Positions 43,313 to 53,103 of a DNA stretch of 53,103 bases are shown here, in pieces. The notes below the pieces were generated by a model, which worked only from the letters and a program-made list of their open reading frames with translations, had not been told where the DNA came from and searched no databases. Every line of letters begins with the position of its first letter. Within the stretch, counting starts at the first letter, position 1. The translations under genes were made by a program, and so were the position numbers. The DNA comes from Candidatus Rokuibacteriota bacterium (GTDB lineage Bacteria > Methylomirabilota > Methylomirabilia > Rokubacteriales > CSP1-6), in the NCBI GenBank assembly GCA_003220435.1, contig QHSL01000044.1:1-53103 (forward strand), given 5' to 3'.

Positions 43313-44320
43313 ATGCGCGCCGCTTTCTATCAGGGCTCGAGAACGTTCACGACCGGCGAGGCGCCCCAGCCCACGCCGGGACCCGACGAGGCCCTGCTGC
43401 GCGTGCGCCGCGTCGGGATCTGCGGGACCGACCTCCATATCTTTCAGGGCCACCTCGACCACCGCGTGCCGAAGGGGGGCGTGATCGGCCACGAGACCTT
43501 CGGTGAGGTCGTCGAGGCGCCGACGGGCAGCGGCTTCTCGTCCGGCAGCCGGGTCGTCGTCGAGCCGGTCGTTTCCTGCGGCGCCTGCCGCGCGTGCGGG
43601 ATGGGAGCCTCGTATCTCTGCTACCAGCTCAAGGTGCTCGGCGTGGATCTGCCGGGAGGCATGCAGGAGTACTGGGCGGTGGCGACGAAGCGGTTGCTCC
43701 GCGTGCCGGACACGGTGTCCGACGATCAGGCGGCCGTGATCGAGCCGCTGGCGGTGGCCGTGCACGACGTCGCCCGCGCCCAGGTGAAGGCCGGCGACTC
43801 GGTACTCGTCTTCGGCGGCGGTCCCATCGGCGCGTTGATCGCGCTGGTCGCCCGCCATCGCGGCGCGCGCGTGGCCGTCGTCGAGGTGAACCCGTTCCGG
43901 CTGGAGATCTTGAAAACGTTCGGTCTGGAGCGCGTGGGCCCGGACACGGATGTCGTCGGATGGGCCAATCAGTGGACGGGCTCCACCGGCGTCGACGTCG
44001 CCTTCGAGGTCACCGGTAACCCTTCCGCCGCCCGGACCGTCGCGGATGTGGTCCGCGTCTGGGGAACCGTCAGCATCGTCGCGATCCACGCCGAGCCCGT
44101 GCCGGTGAACCTCTATCAAATGTTCGCCCGTGAGCTCGTCATGCACGGCAGTCGTCTCTACGCTCGCCGGGACTGGGAGGAGGCGATCCGCCTGGTCGCG
44201 TCGGGTGCCGTGCCGGTCACTCCGCTGGTGAGTCGGCGCATTCCTCTCGAGGCGCTCCAGCAGGGAATGGAGGAAGCGCTGGGCGGCGGCCCCGTCATGA
44301 AGGTGCTCGTCGAGGTCTGA
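43313..44320 (+). CDS. Zinc-dependent medium-chain alcohol dehydrogenase
   Basis: This 335-residue MDR enzyme has catalytic zinc ligands Cys37 (GICGTDLH) and His60-Glu61 (GHETFGE). Structural zinc ligands are Cys89, Cys92, Cys95 and Cys103 in VSCGACRACGMGASYLC. The NAD(P)-binding motif is VFGGGPIGALIAL. The pattern resembles threonine/sorbitol dehydrogenase-type enzymes; the exact alcohol is unknown. Its stop overlaps the ATG of the DUF748 gene by one base. Confidence 0.92.
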   Translation: MRAAFYQGSRTFTTGEAPQPTPGPDEALLRVRRVGICGTDLHIFQGHLDHRVPKGGVIGHETFGEVVEAPTGSGFSSGSRVVVEPVVSCGACRACGMGASYLCYQLKVLGVDLPGGMQEYWAVATKRLLRVPDTVSDDQAAVIEPLAVAVHDVARAQVKAGDSVLVFGGGPIGALIALVARHRGARVAVVEVNPFRLEILKTFGLERVGPDTDVVGWANQWTGSTGVDVAFEVTGNPSAARTVADVVRVWGTVSIVAIHAEPVPVNLYQMFARELVMHGSRLYARRDWEEAIRLVASGAVPVTPLVSRRIPLEALQQGMEEALGGGPVMKVLVEV

Positions 44321-47163
44321 TGCACCGCGCCCTCCGGCGCCCGCTGGTCGCGGTCCTCGTGGGGCTGGTCGTGCTCGTCGCGGTCGGCCTCTCGATCCTG
44401 CCGGAGGTCGTGCGCCGCATCGCGGTGCGCGAGGCGACGAAGCTCACGGGGCGCGCGGTCAGCCTCGCGGACGTGGATCTCAATCTCTTCACCGGCTACG
44501 TCGCGCTGAAGGGCTTCAAGCTCGCACACCGCGGCTCACCGGAGAGCGCGATCGAGCTCGAGCGGCTGGAGGTGCGGCTCGACTACGTGCCGCTCCTCTT
44601 CCACGAGGCGCGCATTACCGAGCTCACGCTGACGTCGCTGAGGATCAACGCCCAGCGCGTCGGCGAGACCGAGTTCGATTTCTCCGACCTCCTCGCCCTC
44701 GTCACCGGCGACCCGTCGGCGCCCCCGTCACAATGGAAAATCACGCTCGCTCGCGTGTCACTGCGTCCGGGGACGATCGTCTTCCGAGATCTGGTCACCG
44801 CGCCCCCGAGCGAGTGGCGGGTCGAGGGGTTGACGGTCGACGCGAGCGACCTCTCGACGCGATCCAGGGCCAAGCCAGGCCGTCTCGCCCTGAAGCTTCG
44901 ACTCAACGGCGCCTCGGTCTCGGTCACGAGCGACTTGTTGACCCTCGATCCCTTCAAAGCCGCGGCGCGCGTCGACGTCGACGGGTTCGATCTCGGCGCG
45001 GTCCGCCCGTACCTGCCTCCGAGTGTCGCCGCCGCGCCACGTGCGGGCCGCGCGAGTCTCGCTCTCGAGCTGGTCGTCGAGCTGGGCCCGGCCGGGCTGA
45101 CGCGTGCCGTCGCGGCCGGCGACCTGGGCGCGTTCGGACTCGAGGTGGTGCAGGCCGGGCGGACCGAGCCCTTCCTGAAGCTTCCGCGGCTCGGCGTCAA
45201 GGTGAAGGCCGCCGACCTCGTCGCCCGCACCGTCACGGTCGCCAGCGTTGAGCTCGAGGGACTCGCCGTGAAAGCGGTCAAGGACGCGCAGCAACGGATC
45301 GACCTCCTCGCCCTCGCCGCGGCGCGGGAGGAGGGGCTCGCCGCGGCACCCGCCGCGAGCGCGGCCACGGCCGCGCAGGGGGGCTTCTCCATGAAGGTCG
45401 AGCAGATCGGCATCCGCAAGGGCGCCTTCACGTTCCGGGACGAGGGCGTCTCGCCGGTCACCACGCTCGCGGGCGGCGATCTCACGGTCGACGTCACGAA
45501 CGTGACGTGGCCGACCGCCGGCCCGGCGGCCTACGCGGCCTCGCTGCGACTGCCGACGGCCGGCCGGCTCGACGTGCGTGGTTCCGTCACGCCCCAGCCC
45601 TTTGATCTGGAGATGGCGATCTCGCTTCGCGGCGGAACGATCGAGCCATTCCAGGCCTACATCCCGGTGCCGGCGCGACTCTCGGGCATCTTCAACGCGG
45701 AGAGTCGCAATCGCATGAAAATCGCCGACGATGGGACGATCACCGCGACGTCGACCGGGAAGAGCACGATCGAGAAGTTCGCGATACGCGCCCCCGGTGA
45801 GACCAAACCGACGGTGAGCGTCGAGAGCATCCAGCTCGATGGGATCGACTTCGCGTGGCCGAAGCACGCGCGCGCGGCCAAAATCACCATCACCAAGCCC
45901 GACATGCTGATCGAGCGCGACGCGGACGGCGCGATCTCCGTCCGCAAGCTCTTCGAGACGGGAGCCGAGACCACCGACGCGGCCAAGGGTGCGCCCACAG
46001 CGGGCGAGGCGCCGAGCCGCGGTCTCCCGCTCCTGCTGGAATTCGGCACCGTCGCGATCACTGAGGGCAACGCGCGCTTCCTCGATCGCACGACGACCCC
46101 GGCGTTCTCGGAGACGCTCTCGCGGCTCGAGGTGACCGTCGAGGGCCTCAGCTCCACGCCGGGACGGCGGGCGAAAATCGCGACACAAGCCGTCGTGGGC
46201 GGCGCCTCCGCATTCGTCCTGCAGGGCGAGATCGCGCCGCTCGGCGACCTCTACGCGGACATGAGCGGCGAGCTGCGCGACTTCGAGCTCACCAGCGTGA
46301 ACCCCTACGCCGACGCCGCGATCGCCTGGTTCATGAAGACCGGGCGACTCGCGGCCAAGGTTCAGCTCAAGATCGAAAAGACCCAGCTCACGGCCGAGAA
46401 CGAGATCGACGTGAGGAACCTCACGGTGGCGCCGTCGCGCGAGGGCGACGAGGTCAAGAAAAGGATCGGGCTGCCGCTCGGGATGATCGTCGCGCTCATC
46501 ACGGACTCGGACAACAGCATCAAGGTCAACGTCCCGCTCTCGGGCGAGCTGAGCCAGCTGCGGGCGGGCCTCGGCGACGCCATCTGGGTGGCCGTGCGGA
46601 ACGCGCTCGTCAACGTGATCAGCGCGCCGTTCAAGGGGATCGGCCGGCTCTTCAAGGGCAAGGGCGACACGGTGGACGACCTCAAGGTCGATCCGGTGAC
46701 GTTCGCGGCCGGCAGCGCGGAGGTGGCACCCGAGATGGACCAGCATCTCACCCAGGTCGCCGACTTCCTGCGCCGGGCGCCGATGATCAAGCTCGCGCTC
46801 ACGTCCGTCGCGGCGCCACGGGACGGCGAGAGCCTCAGGGTCCAGGAGCTCACGCTGAAGATCCAGCGGGTCCAGCTCGAACGCAGAGCCAATTTCAACG
46901 CGGCGGTCGCCGCCGTGTTCAAGGAGCGGCTGCCCGGGGTCGCGCCACCCAAGTCGGCGGACGAGCAGCTCGCCGTGCTTCACCAGCGCGAGCCGTTCCC
47001 CCAGGTGCGCGTGACCGAGCTGCTCACGCGTCGGCTCGCGGCCGTTCGCGACGCGCTCACGACACGGGAAGGGATCCCCGCCGCGCGGCTGCTCCCCGGC
47101 GACGCCAGACCGTCGTCCGAGCCGCCCACCGCTGGACAGGTCGAGTTCGAGATCACGCATTGA
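44320..47163 (+). CDS. DUF748/AsmA-like membrane-anchored protein
   Basis: This 947-residue protein has one N-terminal membrane anchor (VAVLVGLVVLVAVGLSILPE) and a long beta-rich periplasmic region with AsmA-like repeats. One is RAVSLADVDLNLFTGYVALK, near the N-terminus. The later DUF748 part contains LRDFELTSVNPYADAAIAWF, KLKIEKTQLTAENEIDV-type strands and LPLGMIVALITDSDNSIKVN. AsmA-type proteins are long hydrophobic-groove bridges implicated in lipid transport to the outer membrane, which suggests a diderm envelope. It is flanked by the dehydrogenase and the enoyl-CoA hydratase in one co-directional run. Confidence 0.87.
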   Translation: MHRALRRPLVAVLVGLVVLVAVGLSILPEVVRRIAVREATKLTGRAVSLADVDLNLFTGYVALKGFKLAHRGSPESAIELERLEVRLDYVPLLFHEARITELTLTSLRINAQRVGETEFDFSDLLALVTGDPSAPPSQWKITLARVSLRPGTIVFRDLVTAPPSEWRVEGLTVDASDLSTRSRAKPGRLALKLRLNGASVSVTSDLLTLDPFKAAARVDVDGFDLGAVRPYLPPSVAAAPRAGRASLALELVVELGPAGLTRAVAAGDLGAFGLEVVQAGRTEPFLKLPRLGVKVKAADLVARTVTVASVELEGLAVKAVKDAQQRIDLLALAAAREEGLAAAPAASAATAAQGGFSMKVEQIGIRKGAFTFRDEGVSPVTTLAGGDLTVDVTNVTWPTAGPAAYAASLRLPTAGRLDVRGSVTPQPFDLEMAISLRGGTIEPFQAYIPVPARLSGIFNAESRNRMKIADDGTITATSTGKSTIEKFAIRAPGETKPTVSVESIQLDGIDFAWPKHARAAKITITKPDMLIERDADGAISVRKLFETGAETTDAAKGAPTAGEAPSRGLPLLLEFGTVAITEGNARFLDRTTTPAFSETLSRLEVTVEGLSSTPGRRAKIATQAVVGGASAFVLQGEIAPLGDLYADMSGELRDFELTSVNPYADAAIAWFMKTGRLAAKVQLKIEKTQLTAENEIDVRNLTVAPSREGDEVKKRIGLPLGMIVALITDSDNSIKVNVPLSGELSQLRAGLGDAIWVAVRNALVNVISAPFKGIGRLFKGKGDTVDDLKVDPVTFAAGSAEVAPEMDQHLTQVADFLRRAPMIKLALTSVAAPRDGESLRVQELTLKIQRVQLERRANFNAAVAAVFKERLPGVAPPKSADEQLAVLHQREPFPQVRVTELLTRRLAAVRDALTTREGIPAARLLPGDARPSSEPPTAGQVEFEITH

Positions 47164-50190: not shown

Positions 50191-50221
50191 TCGAACTCCT
50201 CCCACAGGGAAGACCCCTTCT

Positions 50222-50300
50222 CGATAATGGCAAACCCGTCGCGAGGCGGGGACGCAAAGCCACGGGTCAGGTCACAAGCCTGATGGCCGGGCTGCCGAAG
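50222..50300 (+). promoter_or_regulatory. Cyclic di-GMP-I riboswitch (GEMM) aptamer
   Basis: The core reads GGCAAACCCGUCGCGAGGCG, then GGGACGCAAAGCCACGGG and UGAUGGCCGGGCUGCCG. It has the GGCAAACC-stem-GGGACGCAAAGCC arrangement with a GCGA tetraloop and the closing GGGCUGCCG strand seen in the Vibrio Vc2 aptamer. It lies about 55 nt upstream of the start of the beta-helix surface protein on the same strand. By family knowledge it binds c-di-GMP; the on/off direction depends on the platform that follows. Confidence 0.92.
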
Positions 50301-50304
50301 GAGG

Positions 50305-50353
50305 GGACCACAGAGCCCCCGGGACGTGGTCTTCCGCACCAAGGGAGGACCAC
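50305..50353 (+). promoter_or_regulatory. Translational expression platform with two exclusive helices
   Basis: GACCAC occurs twice (50306-50311 and 50348-50353) and GTGGTC once (50326-50331). GTGGTC paired with the second GACCAC encloses AAGGGAGG (50341-50348), the ribosome site 6 nt before the ATG, and would block translation. Paired with the first GACCAC, it leaves the site free. A GGGG/CCCC helix also forms at 50303-50319. There is no poly-T, so control is probably at translation initiation. Confidence 0.7.
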
Positions 50354-50354
50354 G

Positions 50355-53103
50355 ATGGTTTGGGAAGGCCGCCGTCTCACTCGCGCCGCTCTCCTCGTCG
50401 CAATGCTTGGCACGATCCTGCTGCAGCCCGTGCCGGGCGCCGCTCAGTCGCTGCCCCAGCTCCCGCAGGTGTTCCTGGACACGACCTATGTGTCGCCCAC
50501 CGGCTCGGTCATCACCGTCGCGGCCGGCGGCGATTTCCAGGCGGCGCTCAACGCGGCCCAGCCCGGGAGCGTGATCGTCCTCCAGGCCGGGGCAACCTTC
50601 ACAGGCAACTTCACCCTGCCGGCCAACGCCGGGCCGGGGTGGATCTACATCGTCTCCTCGGCCCTGGCCTCGATGCCGGAGGGTACGCGCGTCACCCCGG
50701 CCCAGACCGCCCTCATGCCGAAGATCGTGACGCCGAATTCTTCGTCGGCGATCACCAGTGGCGGCGGCTCACAGCTCTATCGCCTCGCCGGGCTCGAGAT
50801 CACCGGCACGCTGACCAACACCGGCAGCATGCAGTACAACCTCGTCATGTTCGGTGGGCAAAGCAACCACGACTTCGTTCTCGACCGCAGCTACATCCAT
50901 GGCCAGCCGTACGGCAACTATAAACGGGGCGTCGAGTTGGAGGCCTCCCGCGTGGCGGTCATCGACTCCTGGATCGACGACATCCACGCCGACGCGGATG
51001 AGTCGCATGGCATTATTTCCTGGAACGGGCCAGGCCCCTACAAGATCGTCAACAATACGATCCGTGCGGCGGCCATCAACATGATGTTCGGCCCGAGCGC
51101 GGGCACGATTGCCTCGGACATCGAGATTCGACGCAATAACCTGGAGAAGCCCTGGTCCTGGCGCGTCGGCGACCCGAGTTTTGCGGGCCAACACTGGACG
51201 GTGAAGAACATCCTCGAGCTCAAAAACGCCCAGCGGGTGCTGATCGACGGCAATCTTCTTCAAAACTGCTGGGTCGACCCGCAGGCCGCGTTCGGGCAGC
51301 AAGGGGCGAACGGCTTTGTGCTCACGGCGCGCAACCAGTGGGGCTCGTGCAGCTGGTGCCCGGTGGCGGACGTGACAATCACGAATAACATCATCCAGCA
51401 CGTGGGCCGCGGCATCGGGATCGCGAACCTGGGCGGCAGCGTGATGGAGCGCATCCTCGTGCGCAACAATCTCTGGCTCGACGTCTCGGCCTCGTTGAAC
51501 GACGGGATCGTGTTCATGTCCTACGCCGACAACGACATCACGATCGACCACAACACCGCGTTCCAAGACGGTGCAGCGATCTGGACCTCCGGCGGGGGAC
51601 CGTTCGCCTTCACGAACAACTTGCAGTATGTCGGCGGCGGCGTCCAGGGCGGCTCGTCGCCAAGCACGAACACGCACAATGTCGAGATCGGCGGCCCTGG
51701 CAACTTCCCGACGGCGGGCAACTTCTTCCCCTCCCTAACGGCCGTCGGCTTCTCGGATTTCGCGGGTGGCAACTACGCTCTCGCAGCCGGGAGTCCCTAT
51801 AGGACGGCCGCCACGGACGGCACCGATATCGGGGTCGACTTCAACGCGCTGAACGCCGCGACTGCATGTACGCTCAGCGGCGCCTGCGGAGGTACTCCAC
51901 CTCCCCCGCCGCCGCCCCCCCCGCCGCCGCCCGCGACTGGCGTATCTCTGTCGCCCACCAGCCTCGATTTCGGATCGGTCACCGCAGGAACGACCAGCGC
52001 CGAGAGGGGGGTCTGGGTGACGAACACCGGCACCACCGGCATCTCGGTGAGCGGCATCACCGTATCGGGACCCTTTGCGCTCTCGCGCACCGATTGCTCC
52101 TCGACATCCACCTGGAACGGCGTCATGGCGCCCGGCACCCACTGCAACGCCTGGGTGGTGTTTGCTCCGGTAGCATCCGGCAGCCCCACGGGAACCCTGA
52201 AGGTCATTGCAGCAGGAACGTCCAAGACGGCGGCGCTCTCGGGCACCGGCACGACTCCGCCCGGGGTGTCTGTCTCGCCCAGCAGCGCCACGATCGCTTC
52301 CGGCGGAACTCAGCAGTTCGCCGCCACGGTCACCGGTACCACCAGTAGCGCGGTGACCTGGACAGCCAGCCAGGGTACGATCGCAAGCACCGGGCTCTAT
52401 GCGGCCCCCACCGTCAGCGCCAACACCACGGCGACGGTGACCGCCACGAGTGTGGCCACTCCCACCATGTCCGCCAGCGTCTCGGTCGCGATCACGAATC
52501 CGCCTCCGCCATCAGGCTCTTTCTCACTGTCGCCCACCAGTGTCTCCTTCGGCTCGGTCAACATCGGAACGACCAGCGCCAAGAAGAATGTCTGGGTGAC
52601 GAACACCGGCACCACCGGCCTCTCGGTGAGCGGCATCACCGTTTCGGGACCCTTCACGCTCTCCAGCACCGATTGCTCCCCGACATCCACCTGGAACGGC
52701 GTCATGGCGCCCGGTACCCACTGCAACGTCTGGGTGGTGTTTGCTCCGGTAACATCCGGCAGCGCCACGGGAACGCTGACGGTCACGGCGGCCGGAACTT
52801 CCAAGACGGTGGCACTCTCAGGCGCCGGCCTGTCGTCATCGGGCTCGTTCTCCCTGTCGCGCACCAGTGTCTCCTTCGGCTCGGTCAACATCGGAACGAC
52901 CAGCGCCAAGAAGAATGTCTGGGTGACGAACACCGGCACCACCGGCCTCTCGGTGAGCGGCATCACCGTTTCGGGGCCCTTCACGCTCTCCAGCACCGAT
53001 TGCTCCCCGACATCCACCTGGAACGGCGTCATGGCGCCCGGTACCCACTGCAACGTCTGGGTGGTGTTTGCTCCGGTAACATCCGGCAGCGCCACGGGAA
53101 CGC
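50355..53103 (+). CDS. Exported right-handed beta-helix surface protein with Ig-like and choice-of-anchor D-type repeats (partial, 3' end outside window)
   Basis: The frame is open from ATG 50355 to the right edge (over 900 residues). A signal peptide (RAALLVAMLGTILLQPVPGA, cut near AQS) leads to a parallel beta-helix (about 45-500) with stacked strands such as DFVLDRSYIHG, ASDIEIRRNNLEKPW, ADVTITNNIIQHVGRGIGI and NDITIDHNTAF. After a polyproline linker (about 515-525) come modules of about 109 residues with DFGSVTAGTTS or SFGSVNIGTTSAKKNVWVTN and WVVFAPVTSG (choice-of-anchor D/DUF1573-like). A bacterial Ig-like domain (SSATIASGGTQQFAATV) is inserted between copies 1 and 2. It is probably a secreted or surface-bound adhesin or matrix component. 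The C-terminal anchor is not visible. It is controlled by the c-di-GMP riboswitch upstream. Confidence 0.92.
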   Translation, partial: MVWEGRRLTRAALLVAMLGTILLQPVPGAAQSLPQLPQVFLDTTYVSPTGSVITVAAGGDFQAALNAAQPGSVIVLQAGATFTGNFTLPANAGPGWIYIVSSALASMPEGTRVTPAQTALMPKIVTPNSSSAITSGGGSQLYRLAGLEITGTLTNTGSMQYNLVMFGGQSNHDFVLDRSYIHGQPYGNYKRGVELEASRVAVIDSWIDDIHADADESHGIISWNGPGPYKIVNNTIRAAAINMMFGPSAGTIASDIEIRRNNLEKPWSWRVGDPSFAGQHWTVKNILELKNAQRVLIDGNLLQNCWVDPQAAFGQQGANGFVLTARNQWGSCSWCPVADVTITNNIIQHVGRGIGIANLGGSVMERILVRNNLWLDVSASLNDGIVFMSYADNDITIDHNTAFQDGAAIWTSGGGPFAFTNNLQYVGGGVQGGSSPSTNTHNVEIGGPGNFPTAGNFFPSLTAVGFSDFAGGNYALAAGSPYRTAATDGTDIGVDFNALNAATACTLSGACGGTPPPPPPPPPPPPATGVSLSPTSLDFGSVTAGTTSAERGVWVTNTGTTGISVSGITVSGPFALSRTDCSSTSTWNGVMAPGTHCNAWVVFAPVASGSPTGTLKVIAAGTSKTAALSGTGTTPPGVSVSPSSATIASGGTQQFAATVTGTTSSAVTWTASQGTIASTGLYAAPTVSANTTATVTATSVATPTMSASVSVAITNPPPPSGSFSLSPTSVSFGSVNIGTTSAKKNVWVTNTGTTGLSVSGITVSGPFTLSSTDCSPTSTWNGVMAPGTHCNVWVVFAPVTSGSATGTLTVTAAGTSKTVALSGAGLSSSGSFSLSRTSVSFGSVNIGTTSAKKNVWVTNTGTTGLSVSGITVSGPFTLSSTDCSPTSTWNGVMAPGTHCNVWVVFAPVTSGSATGT
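52531..53103 (+). repeat. Near-identical 327-bp tandem module repeats in the surface protein
   Basis: The module starting near 52536 recurs at 52863 (327 bp, 109 residues later). The 241 comparable bases to the window edge differ at one position (GGGACCC versus GGGGCCC near 52660 and 52987). An older, more divergent copy starts near 51957. Such identity at DNA level points to recent duplication or gene conversion, and more copies may lie beyond 53103. Confidence 0.9.

Follow-up and report, generated by a model that had tools for sequence, protein, structure and literature searches.

A class-I c-di-GMP aptamer before the gene of a predicted secreted beta-helix protein in a Rokubacterial genome, with a candidate translational OFF switch

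We asked which ligand is sensed by an RNA leader near the end of a contig of Candidatus Rokuibacteriota bacterium, and by what pairing that leader could control the gene behind it. The window (the whole stretch of DNA that was analysed) is the entire contig C49, 53,103 bases, of a 5.4-Mb draft genome. A preliminary description made from the letters alone had placed a c-di-GMP-I aptamer here, ahead of a beta-helix surface protein. The aptamer was borne out by cmscan, which returned c-di-GMP-I-GGC (RF03167) as the sole Rfam family in the window, matched at full length with 75.9 bits (E 2.6e-16) against a cut-off of 59. The family named in that description, RF01051 (c-di-GMP-I, GEMM-I), was likewise significant on the same stretch, with 74.3 bits against a cut-off of 35 and model positions 1-87 of 87 covered. 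The first hairpin of the aptamer carries a GNRA tetraloop (GCGA, 50241-50244).

Residues G20, A47 and C92 contact the ligand in Vc2 (PMC4744006, PMC11218506). All three are canonical in the window (G20 = 50229, A47 = 50256, C92 = 50295; Vc2 numbering after PMC4744006), and c-di-GMP is therefore the expected ligand. Although the window resembles RF03167 in its score, it differs from that model at the Vc2 A47 position, where the consensus has G (...GACGCGAA...) and the window has A (50256; ...GACGCAAA...). We infer that "GGC" in the family name stands for the bases at positions 20, 47 and 92, and it seems from the sequence that G47, which the window lacks, defines the GGC model. The GGC and UAU variants reportedly originate from two papers by Weinberg in 2017. 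We do not take the top Rfam label as a sign of altered ligand specificity in this case; judged by its bases, the window aptamer is a genuine class-I c-di-GMP aptamer, which would be expected to bind c-di-GMP.

A different ligand, whether one preferred by the GGC variant or cGAMP, might be suspected from the top score of the GGC variant model, and from the presence of A20, the cGAMP-type base, in three copies from the same genus. We regard this as extremely unlikely, given that the window itself has G20, A47 and C92; G50229 occupies the position at which GEMM-Ib (3',3'-cGAMP) aptamers have A. The cyclases point the same way. Hypr cyclases have a serine in place of the aspartate found in the GGDEF motif of c-di-GMP cyclases, and every readable GGDEF motif in this and four related genomes retained the aspartate. 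A Hypr cGAMP pathway was rejected, since its signature was missing from the cyclases read. The window's own genome encodes 6 GGDEF and 5 HD-GYP-like domains, and no EAL domain was found in it.

The aptamer occurs in three copies in this genome (the window and two more), in 36 of the 59 genomes of relatives searched, at one to eight copies each, and in 35 of the 57 genomes of the family. Among 78 aptamers from the genome and its relatives, 75 had G-A-C at positions 20/47/92 and 3 had A-A-C; one of these 78 (L028) was read as G-A-C after its register was corrected by eye, and three further rows were excluded as chance matches. The A-A-C copies were L031 (G005:C56), L100 (G007:C89) and L101 (G008:C134), and the Hypr signature was not found in the cyclases read in their genomes. 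Based on the A at position 20, these copies may respond to another ligand or bind c-di-GMP weakly.

The gene behind the window aptamer starts at the ATG at 50355, downstream of the ribosome site GGGAGG (50343-50348), and continues past the contig end, such that its 916-residue open product is incomplete; an orthologue of 1768 aa, whose leader is designated L063, is 62-69% identical. The product has a hydrophobic leader and, after a predicted beta-helix, choice-of-anchor-D repeats (NF012200, E 1.4e-29) as well as HYDIN/ASH-type Ig domains, largely as the preliminary description had it. The beta-helix was not reached by Pfam on the window copy, and on the 1768-aa orthologue Pfam called one further downstream. 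The AlphaFold2 model of the N-terminal region, of moderate confidence (mean pLDDT 65), contains many short strands, and Foldseek matched it with polysaccharide lyases of the parallel beta-helix type (best E 2.9e-6), V. cholerae RbmB being one of the hits. We predict from these models a secreted beta-helix protein with choice-of-anchor-D repeats. Elsewhere in the window, 44320-47163 encodes a 947-aa protein of the DUF748/AsmA family (E 1e-138); its gene stands in line with those for an alcohol dehydrogenase, an enoyl-CoA hydratase and a TauE-type exporter, and has no evident link to the riboswitch.

Targets of this aptamer class appear to be mostly secreted or surface proteins. By a crude rule, 49 of 57 downstream proteins of at least 80 aa had a basic-plus-hydrophobic N-terminus, and the frequent domains were fn3, bacterial Ig, ASH/HYDIN Ig, Laminin-G-like, beta-helix, type IV pilin N-methylation and response regulators. 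In relatives, aptamers L058, L064, L070, L072, L081, L084, L087 and L089 precede type IV pilin-like and response-regulator genes, and there the platform is often otherwise arranged. Pairs of aptamers lie 1.6 kb apart at L090 (G008:C32) and 5.7 kb apart at L063 (G003:C46); within a pair, each aptamer stands before its own member of two paralogous genes for secreted proteins, a layout that looks like joint duplication of gene and switch. For the third copy in the window's own genome, L053 (G000:C106:57944-58024), the best start found was 315 nt on, at a gene with a response-regulator-like N-terminus; either its platform differs or a nearer start was overlooked.

Table 1. Features of the leader and gene in the window, with the basis of each assignment
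Feature	Coordinates	Strand	Basis
Class-I c-di-GMP aptamer (GEMM-I)	50220..50300	+	RF03167 75.9 bits; RF01051 74.3 bits
Strand A (GGAAGACC), in the leader ahead of the aptamer; candidate anti-sequester with partner 50328-50335	50208..50215	+	Permutation test, pair counts
P1 5' strand (CCCCUUCUCG)	50214..50223	+	Aptamer partner 50296-50306
P1 3' strand and extension (CGAAGGAGGGG)	50296..50306	+	Folding
Upstream GACCAC	50306..50311	+	Present in sequence; unsupported as switching strand
Strand E (CGGGA), anti-P1, complementary to P1 5' strand	50320..50324	+	76% of cells pair
Strand B (GUGGUCUUCC), anti-Shine-Dalgarno, common to both alternative folds	50326..50335	+	z -10.2 with C; 82% of cells
Strand C, ribosome-binding site GGGAGG (50343-50348) and remaining sequester partner	50343..50353	+	Sequence, pair counts
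Putatively regulated gene; product with hydrophobic N-terminal leader, predicted parallel beta-helix and choice-of-anchor-D Ig repeats	50355..53103	+	ORF, domain searches, structure prediction

Two folds of the leader share strand B (Table 1). In one, 50326-50335 pairs with 50344-50353 in a hairpin over the ribosome site; in the other, strand A pairs with B while 50219-50223 (UCUCG), within the P1 5' strand, pairs with strand E. A platform built on an intrinsic terminator was rejected, since no terminator site was found on the + strand; a search for a sigma-70 promoter gave no match. Leaders were compared by a permutation test of strand pairs from the same leader against strands from different leaders (20,000 permutations), applied to 60 leaders whose start codon lies 45-85 nt past the aptamer. 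The sequester pairing, E-B with C, gave a z of -10.2 with 0/20,000 permutations as good, and the pairing of A plus the P1 5' strand with E-B gave a z of -9.7, again with 0/20,000. Taken singly, the P1 5' strand (z -4.8, 0/20000) and strand A (z -6.0) also paired better with the E-B of their own leader. As controls, A plus the P1 5' strand with C gave a z of 1.2, and reversed E-B departed slightly from the null (z -1.9, reaching -2.3 in smaller sets). Shared ancestry is only partly removed by such tests: both main pairings held at 0 to 5/20,000 with 17 and 8 dissimilar representatives, and weakened to 852/20,000 with only 4. Strand windows were revised once, after the sequences had been seen; an earlier A:B test with looser windows and without the P1 5' strand had given no signal (2695/20000), and the signal appeared with tighter windows that included this strand.

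Pair counts, taken on the consensus register of a 48-leader alignment, gave a similar picture. B:C was paired in 82% of cells, with a covariation score above all 500 shuffles, and A:B plus E was paired in 73.8% (1/500 shuffles), while the P1 extension was paired in 85%. The E helix by itself was not significant in this count (131/500). In relatives, E appears as CGAGAA, CGGGAA or CGGAAAG where the earlier strand reads UUCUCG, UUCCCG or CUUUCCG, respectively. Taken together, a conserved, co-varying helix lies over the Shine-Dalgarno sequence, as is characteristic of a translational sequester, and these sequence comparisons strongly support the ribosome-site hairpin across the 60 leaders.

The preliminary description had located the switch elsewhere, proposing that GACCAC at 50306-50311 and at 50348-50353 compete for GTGGTC at 50326-50331. 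The repeat is real, and its second GACCAC does overlap the ribosome site ahead of the start codon; the complementarity is a perfect 6 bp in the window, extendable to 9 bp, and both copies of L090 have a similar pairing. We nevertheless consider this competition very unlikely, because the upstream GACCAC had a pairing probability of ~0 in every fold computed, a 6-mer with two partners occurred in only 3/60 leaders, and cognate pairs had no advantage over non-cognate ones (z 0.2). The pairing is also missing from the orthologous leader L063, which keeps GAAGACCCC, GTGGTCTTTCC and GGGGGACCAC and has GGGCGATAGCG in place of the window's GGGGACCACAG; the proposed strand was thus lost while the other strands were kept. 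That description was right about the hiding of the ribosome site and most likely wrong about the anti-sequester strand, for which comparative evidence points to the upstream leader and the P1 5' strand.

We then consider how these strands would be coupled to the ligand. Because the helix of A plus the P1 5' strand with E-B takes up a strand of P1, this helix and P1 of the aptamer are mutually exclusive, and because the helix also occupies B, it leaves the ribosome site free. A ligand that holds P1 should consequently favor a hidden ribosome site, and we think it probable that the leader is a class-I c-di-GMP riboswitch whose translation is repressed when ligand is bound. The aptamer would fold first. 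Once strand B had been made and the ribosome site had not yet emerged, ligand-free RNA could refold such that A plus the P1 5' strand pairs with E-B, breaking P1, occupying B and leaving the ribosome site free (ON). Bound c-di-GMP would instead lock P1, and B, remaining free, would pair with the emerging ribosome site (OFF).

Folding energies bear on both steps. In transcripts that stop short of the ribosome site, the alternative helix beat P1 in 59/60 leaders by the script's count, and forming P1 carried a median cost of 5.7 kcal/mol. When P1 was imposed, opening of the ribosome site became costlier in 47/59 leaders and cheaper in 8 (Wilcoxon 1e-7); this penalty averaged 1.73 kcal/mol and fell to 0.27 when A was shuffled and to -0.33 when E-B was shuffled. 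In the window, the pairing of A plus the P1 5' strand with E-B was worth -22.2 kcal/mol, equaled by 3/3000 shuffles, and its 5+8 bp with an internal loop are weaker than the complementarity of many relatives. Followed by length, the window RNA formed P1 and its extension by 50310, adopted the alternative helix as best fold in transcripts ending at about 50338-50346, where P1 cost about 1 kcal/mol (1.3 kcal/mol for the window in the comparison of leaders cut before the ribosome site), and was taken over by the ribosome-site hairpin from 50354, when P1 was again cheap. With predicted energies this close, the choice between folds would be kinetic. At equilibrium the full-length RNA has P1 and a mostly hidden ribosome site whether ligand is present or absent, and the cost of P1 is small, so switching would hang on timing; the ON state would then be kinetically trapped, with the ribosome perhaps holding it.

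The sign of the switch could reverse if A:B formed alone, without E, since that helix is compatible with a short P1. In such an ON switch, a ligand-stabilized short P1 would hold A near B (8 bp of A:B outside the aptamer), freeing the ribosome site. The better pairing of A alone with E-B in cognate pairs (z -6.0) fits this arrangement, as does the activation by c-di-GMP of the adhesin genes gbpA and cap through Vc1 and Bc2 (PMC4744006, PMC4933901). We judge it unlikely, because E mirrors and pairs with the P1 5' strand (z -4.8), which excludes P1, and because P1, once formed, made opening of the ribosome site costlier rather than cheaper in the 47/59 leaders above.

The general kind of switch is already known. 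In V. cholerae, c-di-GMP represses translation of tfoY through Vc2 (PMC7371385), where a distant ribosome site is masked according to Inuzuka 2018 as cited in PMC7371385. The window shares with Vc2 the class-I aptamer and its contact bases; it differs, as far as the Vc2 platform is described in that account, in platform sequence and target, and its predicted anti-sequester is the leader upstream of the aptamer. Adhesins are known targets as well. Vc1 precedes gbpA, which encodes a secreted adhesin and colonization factor, as the window aptamer precedes a secreted-protein gene; expression through Vc1 rises with c-di-GMP and no anti-Shine-Dalgarno sequence is apparent there (PMC4744006), whereas in the window the sequester is clear and the response is predicted to be OFF. 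Likewise, Bc2 of Bacillus thuringiensis precedes cap, a surface adhesion protein gene, but is a transcriptional anti-terminator ON switch (PMC4933901), unlike the window strand, on which no terminator was detected. A c-di-GMP-I switch on an adhesin gene is therefore nothing new in kind, and the preliminary suggestion that such a switch is undescribed in this lineage may stand: a literature search, which covered few subscription journals, found no paper that links riboswitches to Rokubacteria or Methylomirabilis. The novelty may lie in the three-strand platform shared across the lineage and in the OFF prediction for secreted proteins.

As a broader and more tentative possibility, Rokubacteria and their Methylomirabilis-type relatives might have in common a regulon of secreted proteins that c-di-GMP turns OFF through a single three-strand translational platform, in which RNA upstream of the aptamer serves as anti-sequester, with the few A20 copies sensing another dinucleotide. 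The OFF prediction is testable and contrasts with the usual expectation that c-di-GMP switches adhesins on. These findings suggest that, in a soil lineage with hardly any cultured members, RNA links c-di-GMP directly to secreted proteins. Were the regulon true, high c-di-GMP would silence extracellular proteins, perhaps matrix-modifying ones, an idea prompted by the resemblance of the window's modeled beta-helix to polysaccharide lyases that include RbmB of V. cholerae.
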